From positions 1-49,585 of the forward strand of contig JAISEL010000136.1 of assembly GCA_031264185.1 (NCBI GenBank): a stretch of DNA of 49,585 nucleotides, written 5' to 3'. Positions 19,425-46,593 of this stretch are shown here, piece after piece. This DNA is from Deltaproteobacteria bacterium (GTDB taxonomy: Bacteria > Desulfobacterota > Desulfarculia > Adiutricales > Adiutricaceae). The position numbers were made by a program, and so were the translations under genes. The stretch's first letter is position 1. Every line of letters starts with the position of its first letter. Under the pieces are notes generated by a model, which saw only the letters and a program-made list of their open reading frames with translations, was not told where the DNA came from and made no database searches.

Positions 19425-20621
19425 TCAGCGGTCCACTTCCGGGATAACCAGATCTAAGCTGCCCAGAATGGCGATGGCATCGGCCAGGAGCGTTCCGGCC
19501 GCCGCCTCGGCAAACAGGGATAAATTGGAAAAACCAGGGGCCCGGAGTTTAACCCGGTAAGGCTTGGGACCTCCGTCGCTGACTACATGGACGGCCACCT
19601 GGCCGCGGGCGCCTTCCACTGCCATATAGCTTTCCCCGGCCGGCAGCTTCCAGTTGGCCTTGGGGGCTTTTTCCATAATATGGGAGCCTTCGGGCAGGGA
19701 GGCCAGAGCCTGTTCAACGATCATTAAGCTCGCCTCTATCTCGCTTAAACGGACGAGATAGCGGCCGAAACAGTCGTTGGCCGGGCCTGCGGGAACGGGA
19801 AAGTCAAACTTATGGTAGACGCTGTATGGAAAGTCTTTTCTGGTATCTCTGGCCAGACCGGCGGCCCTTAAAATAGGGCCCGTAGCCCCGTAGCGCCGGC
19901 AGATGTCAGCGTCCATGGGTCCTATGCCCTCCAGGCGGCGGCGGAGAATAATATTGTCGGTCACCAAGCCTTTGTACATTTTGAGTCTTTCCCGTAAGTA
20001 AGGAATAAACTCTTTGGCTAAAGACTTAAACCGCTCGTCGGCGTCTGTGCAGACTCCTCCGAACCGGAAGCTGGACATGGTTAATCTGGAACCGGTAATT
20101 ATCTGGAGAATGTCATTTATTTTTTCCCGTTCCTCAAAGGCGTACAGGATGGGAGTCACTCCGCCTAAATCCATGACAAAAGCGCCCCACCACAGGAGAT
20201 GGGAACTGATGCGGTTCAGTTCGCAGCTGATAACCCTCAGGTACTCGGCTCTTTCCGGAATTTCTATCCCGGCCAGACGTTCGCAGGCCCCGACAAAAGC
20301 CCAGGTCCAGGCCAGAGGGTGAAGGTAATCGACCCGGCCCATGTTGGGAATAAACTGCCAGGGCGTTTTGACTTCGCCCATTTTTTCGTGCATCCGGTGG
20401 AGATAGCCCAAGACCGGTTCGCAGCGGACAATGTATTCGCCGTCCATTTCGCACAGAATGCGCAGAACGCCGTGGGTGCTGGGATGCTGGGGGCCCAGAT
20501 TTAAGATGATCCGGCCGGGCACGGCCTTTTTCTCAAAGTTCCGGGTATAAAAATCTCCGGCCGTCGTTCCGGGTTCTTCCGTCACCGCCAGAGGATTTAT
20601 GAAATTAAAGCAGCCGGTCAT
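19425..20621 (-). CDS. nuoD: Complex I subunit D (49 kDa homologue)
   Basis: NuoD, 398 residues, related to the large subunit of NiFe hydrogenases; it forms the quinone-binding site with NuoB. The N-terminal loop LNLGPQHPSTHGVLR contains the quinone-site His pair. VLGYLHRMHEKMGE and the later FDFPVPAGPANDCFGRY are also standard. It is a separate protein, not fused to NuoC as in E. coli. The N-terminus has about 35 extra residues before GRIILNL; the ATG at 20621 has GGGGGAATAAA upstream and lies only 1 bp after the nuoC stop, so the longer form is likely real. Confidence 0.95.
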   Translation of the reverse strand: MTGCFNFINPLAVTEEPGTTAGDFYTRNFEKKAVPGRIILNLGPQHPSTHGVLRILCEMDGEYIVRCEPVLGYLHRMHEKMGEVKTPWQFIPNMGRVDYLHPLAWTWAFVGACERLAGIEIPERAEYLRVISCELNRISSHLLWWGAFVMDLGGVTPILYAFEEREKINDILQIITGSRLTMSSFRFGGVCTDADERFKSLAKEFIPYLRERLKMYKGLVTDNIILRRRLEGIGPMDADICRRYGATGPILRAAGLARDTRKDFPYSVYHKFDFPVPAGPANDCFGRYLVRLSEIEASLMIVEQALASLPEGSHIMEKAPKANWKLPAGESYMAVEGARGQVAVHVVSDGGPKPYRVKLRAPGFSNLSLFAEAAAGTLLADAIAILGSLDLVIPEVDR

Positions 20622-21147: not shown

Positions 21148-21686
21148 GAGATCATCTCCTTAGGCTCCGGCCACCAGCGGCGGCCGGTAATGATTTCCTG
21201 GACTTTGAAGATCCCTTCCAGAAAAGCCTCGGGTCTGGGCGGACAGCCGGGAATGTAGACATCGACCGGAATCAGCTGGTCGATCCCTTCAACCAAGCCG
21301 TACTGCCCCTCAAACTTAAAAGGCCCCCCTGAGATGGAGCAGTTGCCGCAGGCCATGACATATTTGGGGGCCGGCATCTGCTCATACAGGCGGACGACGG
21401 CCGGAGCCATTTTTTTGGTCACAGTGCCGTTAACCATCAATAAGTCAGCCTGACGGACCGAGGGCCGGAAAACTTCGGCCCCGAATCTGGCAATGTCAAA
21501 TCTGGCCATGCTGACGGCCATCATTTCAATGGCGCAGCAGGCCAGACCGAACGTCACCGGCCAGATTGACATGGCCCGGTTTAAATCAAAAAACCAGTTA
21601 ACCGGCTTGAGATTGATGATGGGCGGCTCAACCCGGCTTCTGGCCTTCCGGATGCCGTCGACTAATAACTTTTCCGGCGCGGCCAC
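21144..21686 (-). CDS. nuoB: Complex I subunit B (cluster N2)
   Basis: NuoB, 180 residues, carrier of the terminal 4Fe-4S cluster N2. All four ligand positions are seen: the tandem cysteines in [12 protein letters not shown], the Cys in [13 protein letters not shown], and that in [11 protein letters not shown]. The start is a GTG at 21686 preceded by AAGGGGG; it overlaps the end of nuoA by 25 bp. Nothing is missing. Confidence 0.95.
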
Positions 21687-22042
21687 GTAAAAACCCCCTT
21701 GGCTTGGAAATAAATGACAGCCAAAAGCACGAAAAACAGAAAATAACTGAGTTCAATCAGCGGCAGCCAGCCGGGCAGATTGCGGTAGCAGACGGCGACG
21801 GGAAACAGGTACAGGATGTCCACGTCAAAGGCGATAAAGATAAGAGCGTATATATGATAGTTAAAGCCGAAATGATCCCAGGAGCGGCCCAGCGGACGTA
21901 TGCCGCATTCATAGGGCATCTGGTAGTCCCCGCCCCGGTTTCTGGGAGCGATTAAGGCGGCTATAACGAGCGGTGAGGCAGCGAAGACGGCCGCTGCTGC
22001 CAGGAAAACTATAATTGCCAGATGTAGGGAATCAAAAACCAT
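21662..22042 (-). CDS. nuoA: Complex I subunit A
   Basis: NuoA, a 126-residue membrane subunit with three helices and first gene of the operon. The conserved loop and acidic helix are visible: [15 protein letters not shown] and [16 protein letters not shown]. The ATG at 22042 is preferred to a TTG two codons upstream because AAGGA stands six bases before it. A consensus promoter lies about 100 bp upstream. Confidence 0.94.
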
Positions 22043-22141
22043 AGCCAATCCTTAAAAAATCGGTTACTTTATTTTTGTCTGAACCTGAAAAACCGCTGAC
22101 TTGGGAGATGGGTCCATAAATTATCTTAATATATGGCCGAG

Positions 22142-22938: not shown

Positions 22939-23268
22939 TCATCCGTTGGCCATCAAATCTTCTTTTTTAAACAAGGTCAGGCCGGCCTGATTAATGTGCC
23001 GCTTCAGGGCGCCGGATTTGATGGTTTGGTAACTCAGGACGTCTACCCTGAACGGCAGGCTGCTTTCCATGAACAGGGTGTAAAGGCGGGCCGCCTCTTT
23101 TCCCTCCACCTGGCCGCACAGGGCCAGATCAATATCGGAATAGGGAAGGTAGGCGCCGGAGGCCCGGGAACCGAACAGAACCGCCCGGTCAAGACGGGCG
23201 GCCAAGGGGGCCAGGATCTCTTTGAGGCGGCCGAGCTGGGCCGGGGTCAAACCGTGGTCAGCCGCCAT
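22939..23268 (-). CDS. MNT nucleotidyltransferase, antitoxin-type
   Basis: A 109-residue minimal nucleotidyltransferase of the MNT (MntA-like) type, usually the antitoxin of HEPN/MNT pairs; known examples AMPylate the HEPN partner. The active-site signature is complete: VLFGSRASGAYLPYSDIDLAL, with Gly-Ser and the Asp-Ile-Asp metal pair. A C-terminal FRVDVLSYQT carries the third acidic position. The ATG at 23268 overlaps the end of the full-length HEPN reading frame by 11 bp, so the two were one operon. The gene itself appears intact even though its partner is interrupted. Confidence 0.85.
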   Translation of the reverse strand: MAADHGLTPAQLGRLKEILAPLAARLDRAVLFGSRASGAYLPYSDIDLALCGQVEGKEAARLYTLFMESSLPFRVDVLSYQTIKSGALKRHINQAGLTLFKKEDLMANG

Positions 23269-23680
23269 AATCCGCCTCTGCTGCCAAAAAAAACATGTAC
23301 AGCTCTTCCATCGCTGCCAAATAACGCCGGGCGGTATCGGCGATCACCTGCTCAAATTTGGAAAAATCATAGGTGTGAGACATTGCGCTGCGTGCGTCCA
23401 TAGCGTCCATCTACACTTGGCCGTCCTGGATCAGCCTGGCCTCAAAAGCCGCCCTGATGACCCTGGCCGGGGTTATGACAGGCAGCGGCACGCCTTCGCC
23501 TTCCAGATAATCTTTCATGGATTTCCAGGCCAGTTCAAAGGCGTATTCAAAGCGCTGGATGCAGCCTTCCTTCTCCAGTTGAGTCAGTTCCCTTTCCGCT
23601 TCAATGGCCTCGCGCAGTAAAATCAAAGCCCGTTTGTAATTTTGGAAGCGAAATAGCCAGCGGGGCGGGCTGTCGATCAT
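23258..23680 (-). pseudogene. HEPN (HI0074-like) toxin with an in-frame TAG
   Basis: HEPN-fold partner of the MNT gene, HI0074-like (called 'nucleotidyltransferase substrate binding'). The ATG at 23680 follows AGGTG. Residues 1-89 give LFRFQNYKRALILLREAIE and FEYAFELAWKSMKDYLEGEG, typical of the family. Codon 90 is TAG (23413-23411). The frame then continues open to a TGA at 23258 and contains the RNase-type RxxxxH motif in DARSAMSHTYDF. Homologues normally have Trp at the TAG position (V-W-x-D), so one TGG to TAG change explains it. As read, the product lacks the catalytic motif. Amber read-through, suppression or pyrrolysine are alternatives without further support here. Confidence 0.8.
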
Positions 23681-26262: not shown

Positions 26263-27474
26263 TCAGATAGCGGCGGCCAGGCGATCATGGGCCTCGTTAT
26301 CTTCACCAAATTCGGGCTGGAAGGCCAGATTCCAGGTGGTCTCCAGGTTAAAGGCGCTTTTTTCCTCCAAAATGGCCGAAGGTTCGGCATAGCGGCTGTG
26401 ATCCAGACGCAAGCCTACAGCCATGGTCCGGACCTCGTCCTTGTGGCCGATAAGTTTGCCCACCGTTTCGTGATCTTTGGGGGCGGCTCCGGACCAGTGG
26501 GAGGAAGTGAAGGAGAAGAGCCGCAAGGAAGGCCTGTTCCATTTGGTCGTACCCGGCGGCAGCCGGTGCAGAGTGACCGAAAGGCCGGTGAAATTGGCCA
26601 GTCTCTGGCTCTCTTTCCGCCAGACGGCCAGTTTTTCCGGGGACTGGATCTCGGTGATTAAGGCTAAAGTCCCGGCCTGGGGATAAAGTTTGGCCCCTTC
26701 AATGTCCCACCAGCCGAAAACGGAGTCCACGGTGAAGGCCAGATTGTCGCAGGCCGTTTCCACGTTGACGCATTCCCGGGCCAGACGGAGATCGTAAATA
26801 CCGGTCGGAAATTCTCCGGCCAGAAGCTGATCGGGCCAGTCGGGGCCCAAAGCTTCCGTCCCCCGTTCGCAGTCGCCCCGGTCCCGGTCCTGACACAGCC
26901 AGGTCGAGTTCTGCCTCTGGGTTTCAATGAAGATGACCGGGCAGTCCTTATCCAAAAGCTCCCTGACCTTCAGGTCCAGAAACTGAAACTGTTCCTGGCG
27001 GACCTGCGAAGATGCGCCGTCTTCAGCCTGGCGGGTGCCCTGGAGCCGGAAGCCTTTCTGGCGTAAGATCTGGGCCACTTTCTCATGGCTTATGGGGTGC
27101 CGGTTATTGGTCAGTTCCTTGGACAGCTGGCGGGTGCTTTTGCCGGTCCACAGCAGGGCGGCCTCCTGAGCATCGCCCTTACTCTGGCAGACGAGAGTTT
27201 CCAAAGAAGCCCAAAGGCCGGGGTCGACTCTTTCAACTCTGGGCCGGCCGGCCCCTGGGCGTCTGGTTTTGCCCGGTTCCAGAGGCGCTTCGTCCAATTC
27301 CCGGAGCCCTTTGGTGATGGTGACACGGGAAAGGCCGCAGGCCCTGGAAACCATGGAGATGCCGCAGCGTCCGATGCGACGGGCTTCGCCGGCCGCGACC
27401 AGGCGGCGTTCCCGTTCGCCTAAATGAGGCCAGACATGATTGAACATCTTGACAAGAGAGTTTTCTGCTTCCAT
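26263..27474 (-). CDS. ISAzo13-type transposase homologue lacking the DDE triad
   Basis: A full-length (403 residues), uninterrupted homologue of ISAzo13-family ('Rhodopirellula') transposases. Recognisable: the N-terminal helix-turn-helix (residues ~38-60, SMVSRACGLSRVTITKGLREL), LLWTGKSTRQLSKEL (108-121), HPISHEKVAQILRQKGF (126-142), YPQAGTLALIT (264-274), and LPPGTTKWNRPSLRLFSF (305-322). The three catalytic positions are all changed. Family VISVDTKKKE reads VIFIETQRQN (Asp to Glu184), LITADGGGSNG reads LITEIQSPEKL (Asp to Ile276), and KWNKIEHRLF reads KWNRPSLRLF (Glu to Ser316). Composition matches the resident genes. No inverted ends were found. An open frame kept after loss of catalysis suggests selection for another role, such as DNA binding. 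The family motifs are from memory. Confidence 0.85.
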   Translation of the reverse strand: MEAENSLVKMFNHVWPHLGERERRLVAAGEARRIGRCGISMVSRACGLSRVTITKGLRELDEAPLEPGKTRRPGAGRPRVERVDPGLWASLETLVCQSKGDAQEAALLWTGKSTRQLSKELTNNRHPISHEKVAQILRQKGFRLQGTRQAEDGASSQVRQEQFQFLDLKVRELLDKDCPVIFIETQRQNSTWLCQDRDRGDCERGTEALGPDWPDQLLAGEFPTGIYDLRLARECVNVETACDNLAFTVDSVFGWWDIEGAKLYPQAGTLALITEIQSPEKLAVWRKESQRLANFTGLSVTLHRLPPGTTKWNRPSLRLFSFTSSHWSGAAPKDHETVGKLIGHKDEVRTMAVGLRLDHSRYAEPSAILEEKSAFNLETTWNLAFQPEFGEDNEAHDRLAAAI

Positions 27475-27522: not shown

Positions 27523-27548
27523 CCGGCCGCCGTTCCACGGGCGGCCGG
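27523..27548 (-). terminator. Terminator of the flavodoxin gene
   Basis: A perfect 9-bp stem, CCGGCCGCC (27523-27531) and GGCGGCCGG (27540-27548), with an 8-base loop. On the minus strand it is followed by TTTAATCATTAAAAAATT. It lies 11 bp beyond the flavodoxin stop and just upstream of the ISAzo13-type gene, which would insulate the two. Confidence 0.6.
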
Positions 27549-27559
27549 GAGGAGGGCAG

Positions 27560-28006
27560 TTAAATGGCCGCCAGGACCGAGCTGCCCCAGTTTTTGATGG
27601 CTGCCGCCGAGTCGCCTGGGTCGCCGTTAATTTTCAGCTTGTCGCCCACCACTTTGGCTCCCAGCGTCCCGAGTTTATCGGTAATGGCGTCCACCGCCCC
27701 GCAGAAGTGGGTGTAGTCTTCATCGCCGCAGCCGAACACCCCGGCCTTGATCCCGGAGCAGCCGATTTTGTCGAAGGATTGGAACAGGGGAATAAAGTCG
27801 TCCTGGAGTTCAATTTCATCCTGTCCCCAGGTCGAGCAGCCGAACAGGACCAGATCCCGTTCGGAGCAGAGACCGTCAGGCTTGGCTTTGCCGGCATTGG
27901 TGGTTTCCACTGAGTGTCCGGCTTCTTTGATCTGGGCGGACAGCTGATTGGCAACCCACTCGGTATTGCCGGTGGTTGAACCGTAAACAATCAAAACATT
28001 GGCCAT
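27560..28006 (-). CDS. Flavodoxin
   Basis: A 148-residue short-chain flavodoxin, an FMN electron carrier that can replace ferredoxin under iron limitation. The phosphate-binding loop is YGSTTGNTE near the N-terminus. The FMN-contacting loops are GCSTWGQDEIELQDDF and FGCGDEDYTHFCGA, closely resembling Desulfovibrio flavodoxin. ATG at 28006 is chosen because AGGAG precedes it; the longer frame to 28048 has no such site. It is monocistronic, with a terminator behind it. It could supply electrons to the nearby NuoEFG-less complex I (inference). Confidence 0.93.
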   Translation of the reverse strand: MANVLIVYGSTTGNTEWVANQLSAQIKEAGHSVETTNAGKAKPDGLCSERDLVLFGCSTWGQDEIELQDDFIPLFQSFDKIGCSGIKAGVFGCGDEDYTHFCGAVDAITDKLGTLGAKVVGDKLKINGDPGDSAAAIKNWGSSVLAAI

Positions 28007-28092: not shown

Positions 28093-28125
28093 ATCATAAT
28101 TGAAACTCAGTAGCAATAGCTTTTA
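28093..28125 (-). promoter_or_regulatory. Possible Fur-like operator upstream of flavodoxin
   Basis: An AT-rich dyad with ATTGAAACT and a downstream CAAT half-site, about 90-120 bp before the flavodoxin ATG. A further copy of the arm, AGTTTCAG, lies at 28166-28173. Flavodoxins are often under Fur control and the spacing is suitable, but the match to a Fur box is loose. Confidence 0.25.
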
Positions 28126-28559
28126 GAAAAAATTTTTGTCAGCCGGGGAAAATTTTTTCCATAATAGTTTCAGTATGTTATGTGTTTTTTTTAGCAACTT
28201 TTTTTACGAGACTCCGAAAAAATCAAAAAAATCTTTGTCAATAATTAAAAAAAGATGGTTTCTTAGGCTTCCGGAACCTTAAAAGGCAGCCGAATCTTTA
28301 ACAGGAATTTTATGTCTCTTATATTTTCAAGGAATTATTTTGAAAAATCGTGAGCAGATCCCTGCCCTGAAGATTAATTAGCTGTATTCCTGATTTTTTC
28401 ATCATTTTTACTTGGCATTGGGTTTATACCCAATGCTTCATAGAGCCTTAAGCGCCGTAATTAATAAACAATTGATTCTCTAATCTCTATAATTATTAAA
28501 TCATAAAATATGCATTATATAACTATGTAAAGTCATTTTTTTGATTTTACAGCTATTAT
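28126..28559. other. AT-rich intergenic with a perfect hairpin
   Basis: No gene seen. GCATTGGGT TTAT ACCCAATGC (28415-28436) is a perfect 9-bp stem with a four-base loop and no T run on either strand. Confidence 0.5.
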
Positions 28560-29239: not shown

Positions 29240-30373
29240 TCAGCTGTTTTTGATTTGCGGGCGGAAAGTCCAGGCTGAGGTCAGGGGGGCGGTTCTGAAG
29301 CGGGCGGCCAAACCTGAGGTTCCCGGGTCAAAGCCGAAAAGGTCCCGCCACATGCGGCCGCTTTCCATGCACAGGTAGACCGTCGTCAGGGGGCACAGGT
29401 GAGGCTTCAGAAAGTTCAGCAAGCTTTTGTACAGAAGGTATCTTAAAGGGCGCGGATAGCGTTTTTTGCCGTCATGGGCCCGGATAAACTCCCCGTCAAA
29501 TAAGGCTGACGGATTATCTTTCAGCAGAATGTTTTTTAACGGCCCTAAATACCGGAAACAGCCCAAAGAAATCCAGGCCACTTTATTCCAGGGCACATAT
29601 TTGTCAATCAGCCCGACCGCTTCCAGGTAACCCCTGCTCCAGCCGGGATAACAGACAATGGGATCAAAATGAAGCCCTATGCTGTAGCCCCAGTCGGCTG
29701 CTTTTCGGGCTGCTTTCAGGCGGGAAATCAAGGGCGCGGCCCTGGATTCGGTCCCGGCCGAAATAAAGGGCGAATTGACGGAAAAGCTTATGACTGTCCG
29801 GCCCCGGTGGTCCAAGGCCAGAAGATGGTCAATGCCGGCGGTCTTGGTTTTTAGTTCAAGAACGCTTTTGGAATAGTTGGAAAAAAGTAAAATTAAGCTT
29901 TCAGAAATATTAAAGCCCCGGTCGAAAACCAAAGAATCGGTAAATTCGCCCGTGCAGAACCGGTAGGATTTTTCCGGATCCTGGGGGCGGCCGGAATTTT
30001 CAATATCATCTAAAATCCGTTTTATTTCGGCCAGTCCGTCGGTTAAAGCGTTCCCGAATCTGAACACGGCCGCAGAGCCCAGGTAAGCGGCCAGAATGCA
30101 GTACTGGCAGCCTAAATGACAGCCCTGGCCTATGTGAATAATATTCAGGCCGCAGCAGTTATACAAAGGAGTGGCCGGACAGGGCCGGATAAAAGAACCC
30201 CGGTGGCGGGTCAAAACCAGATCTCCGGCCGAAAAGGAAGGATAGTCGGCCGCAGTCAGCGGGGCAATGACCTCAGGCCTGTACTGGGGGTAGAAAGAAG
30301 AATCAGCGAACTCTTCTTCGGCCAAATACCGATCAGGCGCCGGACCGGTCTGGCCGTTTAAACGGGGCCTCAT
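29240..30373 (-). CDS. SPL-type radical SAM protein
   Basis: A 377-residue radical SAM protein of the spore photoproduct lyase-like branch. Cys85, Cys89 and Cys92 form the CxxxCxxC cluster motif in GQGCHLGCQYC. FCTGEFTDSL, ELKTKTAGIDHLL, FSVNSPFIS and the later GLHFDPIVCYPGW match the SplB-like TIM barrel. Real SplB repairs UV photoproducts in spores, but this organism shows no other sign of sporulation, and many Desulfobacterota carry such proteins without a known substrate. ATG at 30373 lacks a strong ribosome site. It follows the ParB-like gene by 43 bp and is the last gene of the miaB-purB-uppS-ridA run. Confidence 0.85.
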   Translation of the reverse strand: MRPRLNGQTGPAPDRYLAEEEFADSSFYPQYRPEVIAPLTAADYPSFSAGDLVLTRHRGSFIRPCPATPLYNCCGLNIIHIGQGCHLGCQYCILAAYLGSAAVFRFGNALTDGLAEIKRILDDIENSGRPQDPEKSYRFCTGEFTDSLVFDRGFNISESLILLFSNYSKSVLELKTKTAGIDHLLALDHRGRTVISFSVNSPFISAGTESRAAPLISRLKAARKAADWGYSIGLHFDPIVCYPGWSRGYLEAVGLIDKYVPWNKVAWISLGCFRYLGPLKNILLKDNPSALFDGEFIRAHDGKKRYPRPLRYLLYKSLLNFLKPHLCPLTTVYLCMESGRMWRDLFGFDPGTSGLAARFRTAPLTSAWTFRPQIKNS

Positions 30374-45065: not shown

Positions 45066-46593
45066 AAATCTACATCCAGCGAATACCAGGGCCTCAACCT
45101 GCTTCTGTTGGAAGGCGCCGGCTATGAAGACGAACGCTGGCTGACTTTAAATAATGCCAAAAAGGCCGGTTATCTGGTCAGGAAGGGCTCCAAAGCCCAA
45201 ACAGTCGAAACTGGCCTTTACCAAAAAGGCGGACAAACTGGACGAAAACGGCCGGCCCGTCCTTGATGATCAAGGCAGCCCGGAAAAAGTTGAGGTCAGG
45301 CTGCAGCGGCCCATTGTCCAGTCTTACAGCGTCTTTAACGCCGCCCAGCTGACCCTCCAAAACGGCGAGCCACTGCCGCCGTATAAGGAGGATGAGCCCG
45401 GGATCAGCCGGGAAGATAATGACAAGGAGGTTTTTGCCCTGCTGAATAAAATAGTCGAAAACTCAGGGGTTAAAATCTTCCACGATCAGAAAGAACATAA
45501 TTTCTACGGCAGATCAGCAGAAGGAATTCATCTGGTCCCGGCCAGAGCGTTTGATGAGCCTATGTATTATCACGCAGCTAAAATGCATGAAATGGGTCAT
45601 TGGACCGGGAATATAAAACGACTTGGGCGACACTCTTCAGACGGCTTCTGCAAGGGGGGTTATTCTCAATAAGAAGCGATCGCCGAAATGTTTTCCTGGC
45701 GTCTGGCTAAGACGCTTGGCCTGCCGCATGACCCGGACAATTCCGCAGCCTATGTAAAAGATTGGCTTGGTGATATCCAATCAATACCGGCAAAGGTCAG
45801 ACAGTATTTAGCCGAATCCGAGAAGTGCGTTAAGTTCATCATGGGTTTTGCCCCGGAAAAGTCTCAGACTGCCGGCCAGGATTTGGATTTCTCCCCGGGG
45901 GCGGAAGTTTTGGCCGGAGCCGCCTCCGGAGTTCAGGCCGGGGCGGCGGTGATGCAGGCGGCTCCAGCTGAAAAGGCCCCGATAATAAGCTCCGTTCCTG
46001 GCGTAGTTTTGGCCGTGCCCTACAGCGAAAAGGACGAGGCCAAAAAGCTGGGGGCCAAATTCGACTTCAAAGTTAAGGTCTGGGTGGCTCCGGAAGGCAG
46101 GGATCCCCGGGAGTTCGCCCGGTGGCTGCCCAAAACTGAAATTAAGCCTGAGCCGGTTTTGGGTCCGGAAGCGGATTTTCAGGAGGTTTTGAAGGACAAA
46201 GGCTTTGCGGCGGACAAACCGCCGGTCATGAACGGTCAGGTCCAGAAAATATCCTCGCCGCCTGAGGCGCCCAAAGCTAAAAAAGGCCTGTATAAGGCCG
46301 TCTTAGGAGACCGGCCACGGGGTTTTGTCAACGATCTGTCGGACGGCACCTCAGCTGACTGGATTTATACCGGTCAGAAGCTGGAGTCGCTGGAAGCGGA
46401 AAAAGAGGTCGAAAAATCCTTAAAAGCCAGGCCAAAAGTCAGACCAAAGACCAAGCATGAGGCCAAGCCGGAGACCGGTCTCGGAGCGGAGACCAAAACT
46501 TCTCTGATCAGCAATTCGCCGGAGCCGGACAAACCGAAAAAGACGGCGGCCAAAAGAGCGGCGCCCAAAAAGAACGTCGGCTTAAGCCGGTAA
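45066..46593 (+). pseudogene. ArdC-like zincin with DUF5710-type domain, broken
   Basis: Broken gene of the ArdC/antirestriction-type family. EYQGLNLLLLEGAGYEDERW and LTLNNAKKAGYLVRKGSKAQTVE (45081-45209) are the N-terminal ArdC domain without its start. A frameshift near 45210 leads to FTKKADKLDENG, and the metallopeptidase helix MHEMGHWTGNIKRLGR keeps the HExxH motif (~45590-45625). A TAA at 45670-45672 then interrupts GGYSQ-stop-EAIAEMFSWRLAK; homologues have Glu there. The frame reopens to 46593 and carries VVLAVPYSEKDEAKKLGAKFDFKVKVW, a DUF5710-like domain, and a basic Lys/Ala-rich end. The part from 45688 (301 codons) could still be made as a separate protein. Confidence 0.8.

Follow-up and report, generated by a model that had tools for sequence, protein, structure and literature searches.

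Whether an unbroken transposase frame that has lost its catalytic residues is a dead insertion sequence, a working enzyme or a gene put to another use was the question raised by an open reading frame at 26263..27474 of the window, the 49,585-nucleotide stretch of DNA analysed here, which is the entire contig C3 of a 4.4-Mb, 166-contig genome. The first-pass annotation, made from the sequence alone, had described an intact frame of 403 codons with host-like composition, assigned it to the ISAzo13 family with all three catalytic residues replaced, and proposed a possible domesticated transposase. The frame held up, running on the minus strand (27474..26263) without an internal stop, as did the family, since the protein scored 238 bits against NF033519 (ISAzo13 family transposase, cut-off 200) and 162.7 bits against PF07592 (cut-off 26.9) and so exceeded both curated cut-offs. 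Its composition was indeed host-like, with a GC3 of 0.70 compared with 0.71 for the neighbouring flavodoxin gene. No second ISAzo13-like ORF was found in the window; elsewhere in the same genome many ISAzo13 copies are broken, with stops, and functional-looking copies are present in several genomes, the window's genome among them.

The window protein and its orthologues are referred to here as clade A. In an alignment with functional relatives, in which the triad sites read VISV(D), ITA(D)GGGSN and KWNKV(E)HRLF, the window protein had E184, I276 or E275, and S316, the second position (Asp2) being subject to a one-residue alignment ambiguity. ISAzo13 transposases annotated on Rhizobium, Streptomyces and Mesorhizobium plasmids kept D, D and E in the same alignment run. 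The replacement first described, Glu184, Ile276 and Ser316, applies to the window's genus, with E275 as an alternative to Ile276, but not to the other genera, which retain Asp2. No alternative DDE triad was seen in the alignment of clade A proteins, and a catalytic Asp/Asp/Glu placed elsewhere, which would have made the protein an active transposase, was not recovered. The window protein met the family-homology cut-offs and failed the DDE triad criterion of a functional ISAzo13 transposase; on the ORF, profile, alignment, conservation and predicted structure it was annotated as a catalytically dead, ISAzo13-derived protein of 403 amino acids.

Full-length, unbroken clade A orthologues were found in 23 of the 37 genomes of the taxonomic family (window counted), at 45–65% identity and one copy per genome, and clade A fragments lay at contig edges in 3 further family genomes. 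No member was found in 26 other genomes of the class. When 297 genomes sampled from the phylum were searched, the highest-scoring match beyond the family (447 bits) was a D-D-E transposase. The catalytic Glu was lost in 23/23 orthologues, with Ser, Ala, Cys, Gln or Asn in its place, so that the catalytic loss is shared with 22 other family genomes; Asp1 was changed to Glu in 21 of the 23, loss of Asp2 was confined to the window's genus, and the KWN motif together with Asp2 was still present in many orthologues.

Selection was estimated as Nei-Gojobori dN/dS from close pairs only, because many distant clade A pairs were near dS saturation. The closer pairs gave 0.07–0.39 over the whole gene, and 0.02–0.17 over residues 1–150 compared with 0.10–0.57 over the remainder. 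Mean column conservation was ~0.91 over residues 1–75 and ~0.46 over residues 176–225. When neutral substitution was simulated, 0 of 2000 frames were still open at a distance of at least 0.43. As judged from sequence comparison, purifying selection on clade A is clear and is strongest over the N-terminal, putatively DNA-binding half. The first-pass annotation had allowed that the gene would be merely a young dead copy if no orthologue shared its substitutions or if dN/dS was near 1; this reading is ruled out, because orthologues exist and dN/dS is well below 1. The orthologue pattern expected of a domesticated transposase, in which intact genes occupy one locus in different species and evolve under purifying selection, was observed.

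The gene had also been described as sitting alone next to a flavodoxin. The flavodoxin does adjoin it, but the gene is not solitary, being the second of a conserved two-gene unit. In the window the flavodoxin gene (27560..28006, minus strand, 148 amino acids) is co-directional with the clade A gene and lies 85 bp upstream, and a flavodoxin gene stood directly upstream on the same strand, 6–450 bp away, at 22 of the 23 full-length loci. At the exception, in genome G014, the clade A gene lies at least 1 kb downstream of ribH and other genes, with no flavodoxin; in genomes G011 and G029 only the flavodoxin is present. Across the 37 genomes both genes were present in 23, clade A only in 3, flavodoxin only in 2 and neither in 9 (Fisher p = 8e-5), an association that partly reflects adjacency and missing contigs. 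By neighbour comparison, complex I genes lie downstream of clade A in several genera, nuoA being first in 9 loci including that of the window, where nuoA (21665..22048) opens the minus-strand operon that also holds nuoD (19428..20621); genus g7, for which G027 was inspected, has cytochrome bd genes nearby in place of complex I. Other genes were recorded in the surroundings. Between nuoA and clade A, at 22939–23680 on the minus strand, is a gene for a small nucleotidyltransferase-domain protein, beside an 89-amino-acid ORF that resembles an MNT/HEPN-type toxin-antitoxin partner. Upstream of the flavodoxin, at 29240–30373 on the minus strand, is a gene for a spore photoproduct lyase-like radical SAM protein (PF20903), which also occurs in sister genomes, adjoining a ParB-like gene.

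Functional relatives in the same family carry clear ~25-bp inverted ends (consensus AGGCGGYGGGNAAAAATAAACTTTACA) on elements of ~1.3 kb. Around clade A genes no comparable ends were found, the best candidate scoring 12 out of 41 bits, close to what shuffled sequences gave, in agreement with the earlier remark that none were visible. The mobility-loss criterion for a domesticated transposase, a single copy per genome without terminal inverted repeats (TIRs), was met. Operators derived from TIRs were also sought near the clade A gene; no candidate clearly exceeded the shuffled range.

The clade A tree grouped by genus, in FastTree and in a reduced iqtree analysis, which matches the expectation of vertical inheritance. 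Two further dead lineages were recognised. Clade B (11 genomes, L103–L113, for example L106:575-1609) has the same N-terminal region as clade A and a catalytic domain that is further degraded, with Asp1 changed to Glu or another residue, Asp2 to Tyr, His or another residue, and Glu lost. In 7 genomes it immediately precedes a CysM-like cysteine synthase gene on the same strand, after which come, in order, genes for a JAB protease, a ThiS/SAMP-like carrier and ThiF/MoeB; most of the remaining clade B loci are short contigs. In the reduced iqtree analysis clades A and B were sisters with 100% ultrafast bootstrap, and the pair grouped (99%) with functional transposases from a different family in the phylum. 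Clade C, restricted to genus g7 (L143, L154, L159, L161, L162 and L164), reads VLSxES and VGRGG and has a conserved context of a response regulator gene and a gene for a conserved putative membrane protein. Its origin is unsettled, because it was placed with clades A and B in FastTree (0.95) and elsewhere in the reduced iqtree analysis (98).

These relationships bear on the possibility that the dead transposase is retained to repress active ISAzo13 copies, limiting their transposition by binding to inverted repeats or by poisoning multimers. Such a role would be in keeping with the conserved DNA-binding region and with the functional-looking copies found in several genomes, including the window's. 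Against it, G014, G021 and G031 have clade A but no other match to the clade A profile; moreover, its nearest functional relatives in the tree come from another family of the phylum rather than from copies in its own genome, and the tight linkage to flavodoxin is left unexplained. Repression of ISAzo13 is considered unlikely, while keeping some weight.

The structure of the window protein was modelled with AlphaFold2 together with its orthologues (pLDDT 79.6), and a model of functional relatives served as control (pLDDT 70.6). Residues ~1–140 of the window protein make up a bipartite helical region inferred to bind DNA, with helices modelled at residues 2–60, 85–95 and 114–139, and residues ~155–390 an altered catalytic domain. 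In the model the C-terminal domain is remodelled and residues 316–324 form a beta strand, where the control has a helix (319–330) around Glu321; the helix that carries the catalytic Glu is thus predicted to be lost. For residues 166–357 of the control, the top-ranked matches were all to catalytic cores of retroviral integrases and mariner transposases (Z up to 8.9), whereas the altered catalytic domain of the window protein gave no match to such cores. The matches of the window protein to mariner (Mos1), SETMAR DNA-binding-domain and paired-domain structures involved mainly residues 13–142; the N-terminal region also resembled the TrpR DNA-binding fold. All had Z values of ~5 or below, which are weak and were taken as supporting evidence only. 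A Foldseek search with the whole model returned no match with E ≤ 0.001, and a PDB sequence search with the clade A profile returned no real match.

A remodelled catalytic domain and a redox-related operon would also be compatible with a transposase-descended protein that no longer binds DNA and has become an accessory or structural component of the flavodoxin or respiratory system. This is doubtful at best, in that the putative DNA-binding region is the most conserved part of clade A and the sister clade carries the same region at an unrelated cysteine operon; the position of clade B at an unrelated biosynthetic operon makes a regulator likelier than a redox accessory protein. An old, unselected dead copy hitch-hiking beside flavodoxin would explain the loss of catalytic residues but not a dN/dS far below 1 or open frames in 23 of 23 genomes, and with no frame left open in the neutral simulation at these distances it is already refuted unless the alignments are wrong. 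Equally little credence is given to a still-active transposase with non-canonical catalytic residues, which could draw on the Asp2 and KWN motif of many orthologues but faces a single copy everywhere at a fixed locus without TIRs, a Glu that is never present and the predicted loss of the catalytic helix.

The flavodoxin promoter was compared across the 23 loci. In the window, a dyad (ATTGCTACTGAGTTTCAATT, 28098..28117, minus strand) occupies the −35/−10 spacer; the motif was present and near-invariant in 23/23 promoters, where a version of CTATTGCAATTGAGAATCAGTTA is followed by the −10-like TAAACT. Copies with one mismatch lie upstream of feoA in the window's genome and of a TonB-dependent receptor gene in a sister genome, and the motif was therefore read as a Fur-type box, by its form and its targets and without a demonstrated regulator. 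A second element (CATAACATACTGAAACTATT, 28163..28182, minus strand; consensus TAAC-N5-GAAATnATT) was position-locked: in all 23 promoters it lies 71–75 bp ahead of the box's TGAG core, with an information content of 12.3 compared with 8.2–8.5 for shuffles. G011 has this element at its flavodoxin promoter and G016 has it at the promoter of an unannotated conserved RNA; no clade A was found in either genome, so the element is probably bound by something other than clade A. Binding of the Fur-type box by clade A is likewise unlikely, because the box occurs in genomes without detected clade A and upstream of feoA and the TonB receptor gene. Searches of the flavodoxin promoters and of the region upstream of nuoA identified no clade A binding site; upstream of nuoA no motif was convincing (information content 11.3 compared with 10.0–10.5 for shuffled sequences).

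The unannotated conserved RNA-like element is ~130 nt long and has the form GCCTCCCACCTGT ... ACCGGGACTGGGCCGG hairpin ... TTTT. It is preceded by a Fur-type box and by the upstream element known from the flavodoxin promoters; in most of the RNA's promoters this element lies ~50 bp upstream of the box. In the window's genome it lies at about 3535–3720 of L005 (G000:C12, near 46250–46400); it was also found in L232, L233, L234, L237, L238, L251, L253, L255, L256, L257 and L262, and in several genomes it stands between riboflavin synthase and pyrF-region genes. It matched nothing in Rfam up to E = 1 and looks like an iron-regulated small RNA.

Domestication of clade A is strongly supported: the orthologues, the catalytic loss and dN/dS all favour the domesticated-transposase reading with which the analysis began. 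The account regarded as probable is that of an ancient exapted ISAzo13 transposase, immobile, non-catalytic and vertically inherited, which is kept as a DNA-binding regulator with flavodoxin. Sequence alone establishes that clade A descends from ISAzo13, has lost its active site, is under purifying selection and keeps an operon-like synteny with flavodoxin, and that a common motif marks the flavodoxin promoters; co-transcription with flavodoxin, response to iron, DNA binding, regulatory role, cellular function and targets are inferred, in the absence of expression or binding data. During domestication the N-terminal DNA-binding region, which would once have recognised transposon ends, may have been kept and hardened; the inverted repeats, the DDE active site and, by prediction, the helix bearing the catalytic Glu were lost. 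When iron falls, a Fur-type repressor would leave the flavodoxin promoter, and flavodoxin and the transposase-derived protein would then be made together; the clade A protein would bind specific DNA as a transcription regulator of a redox or respiratory switch, with its own operon and the adjoining nuo or cyd genes as candidate targets. A perfect 9-bp GC-rich inverted repeat between the flavodoxin stop and the clade A start (27523..27548), read from the sequence, may form a hairpin weakly resembling a terminator or attenuator, and is counted against this account, as are the lack of an assignable target site and the genomes that have only one of the two genes. Taken together, clades A and B have the appearance of a new set of transposase-derived gene regulators. 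A wider proposal, on which opinion is evenly poised, is that of a bacterial transcription factor family derived from a dead DDE transposase, in which a single ISAzo13 domestication followed by duplication gave rise to at least two lineages, clade A (flavodoxin and iron) and clade B (cysteine), with clade C as a third that may be an independent domestication.

An automated label of "ISAzo13 family transposase" can conceal real host genes. Since clade A is a vertically inherited case whose functional relatives still carry their ends, the route from transposase to transcription factor becomes directly testable, including whether operators descend from transposon ends. Eukaryotes offer well-documented cases of transposases becoming regulators. 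In the open-access literature searched, no DDE transposase from a bacterium was found to have become a regulator, and the papers on ISAzo13, judged by title, are IS surveys and genome reports. A 2022 review of mobile-element recruitment in prokaryotes (PMC8987985) names Xre and ribbon-helix-helix proteins in the available part of its section on co-opted transcription factors, and the term "DDE" is absent from its text. The clear bacterial precedents found, within the open-access literature searched, were TnpB-derived TldR and the tyrosine-type TnpA_REP.

TldR proteins are homologues of TnpB that have lost nuclease activity and were exapted to repress transcription under RNA guidance (Wiegand 2024, cited in PMC13418256). 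They resemble clade A in being a bacterial transposon enzyme with an inactivated catalytic site, retained DNA binding and a strong association with non-transposon genes, and differ in that TnpB has a RuvC nuclease and a guide RNA, whereas clade A derives from a DDE transposase with helix-turn-helix DNA recognition. TnpA_REP (RAYT), reported to be the first domesticated transposase from prokaryotes (PMC8266576), is like clade A a domesticated prokaryotic transposase, but it is a tyrosine (Y1/HUH) enzyme tied to REP sequences, whereas clade A is of the DDE type and has lost its active site. Among domesticated mariner-like DDE proteins the comparison is with SETMAR (Metnase), derived from the Hsmar1 transposase, whose DNA-binding domain on TIR DNA was among the best structural matches of the N-terminal part of the window protein; SETMAR is a primate fusion protein, and clade A, unlike it, is bacterial, unfused and encoded in an operon. 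To the ISAzo13 family transposases themselves (NF033519/PF07592) clade A is homologous over nearly its whole length and retains their N-terminal helix-turn-helix region, but it stands apart from them in having no catalytic Glu, no inverted repeats, a single copy per genome, a fixed flavodoxin operon and vertical inheritance.
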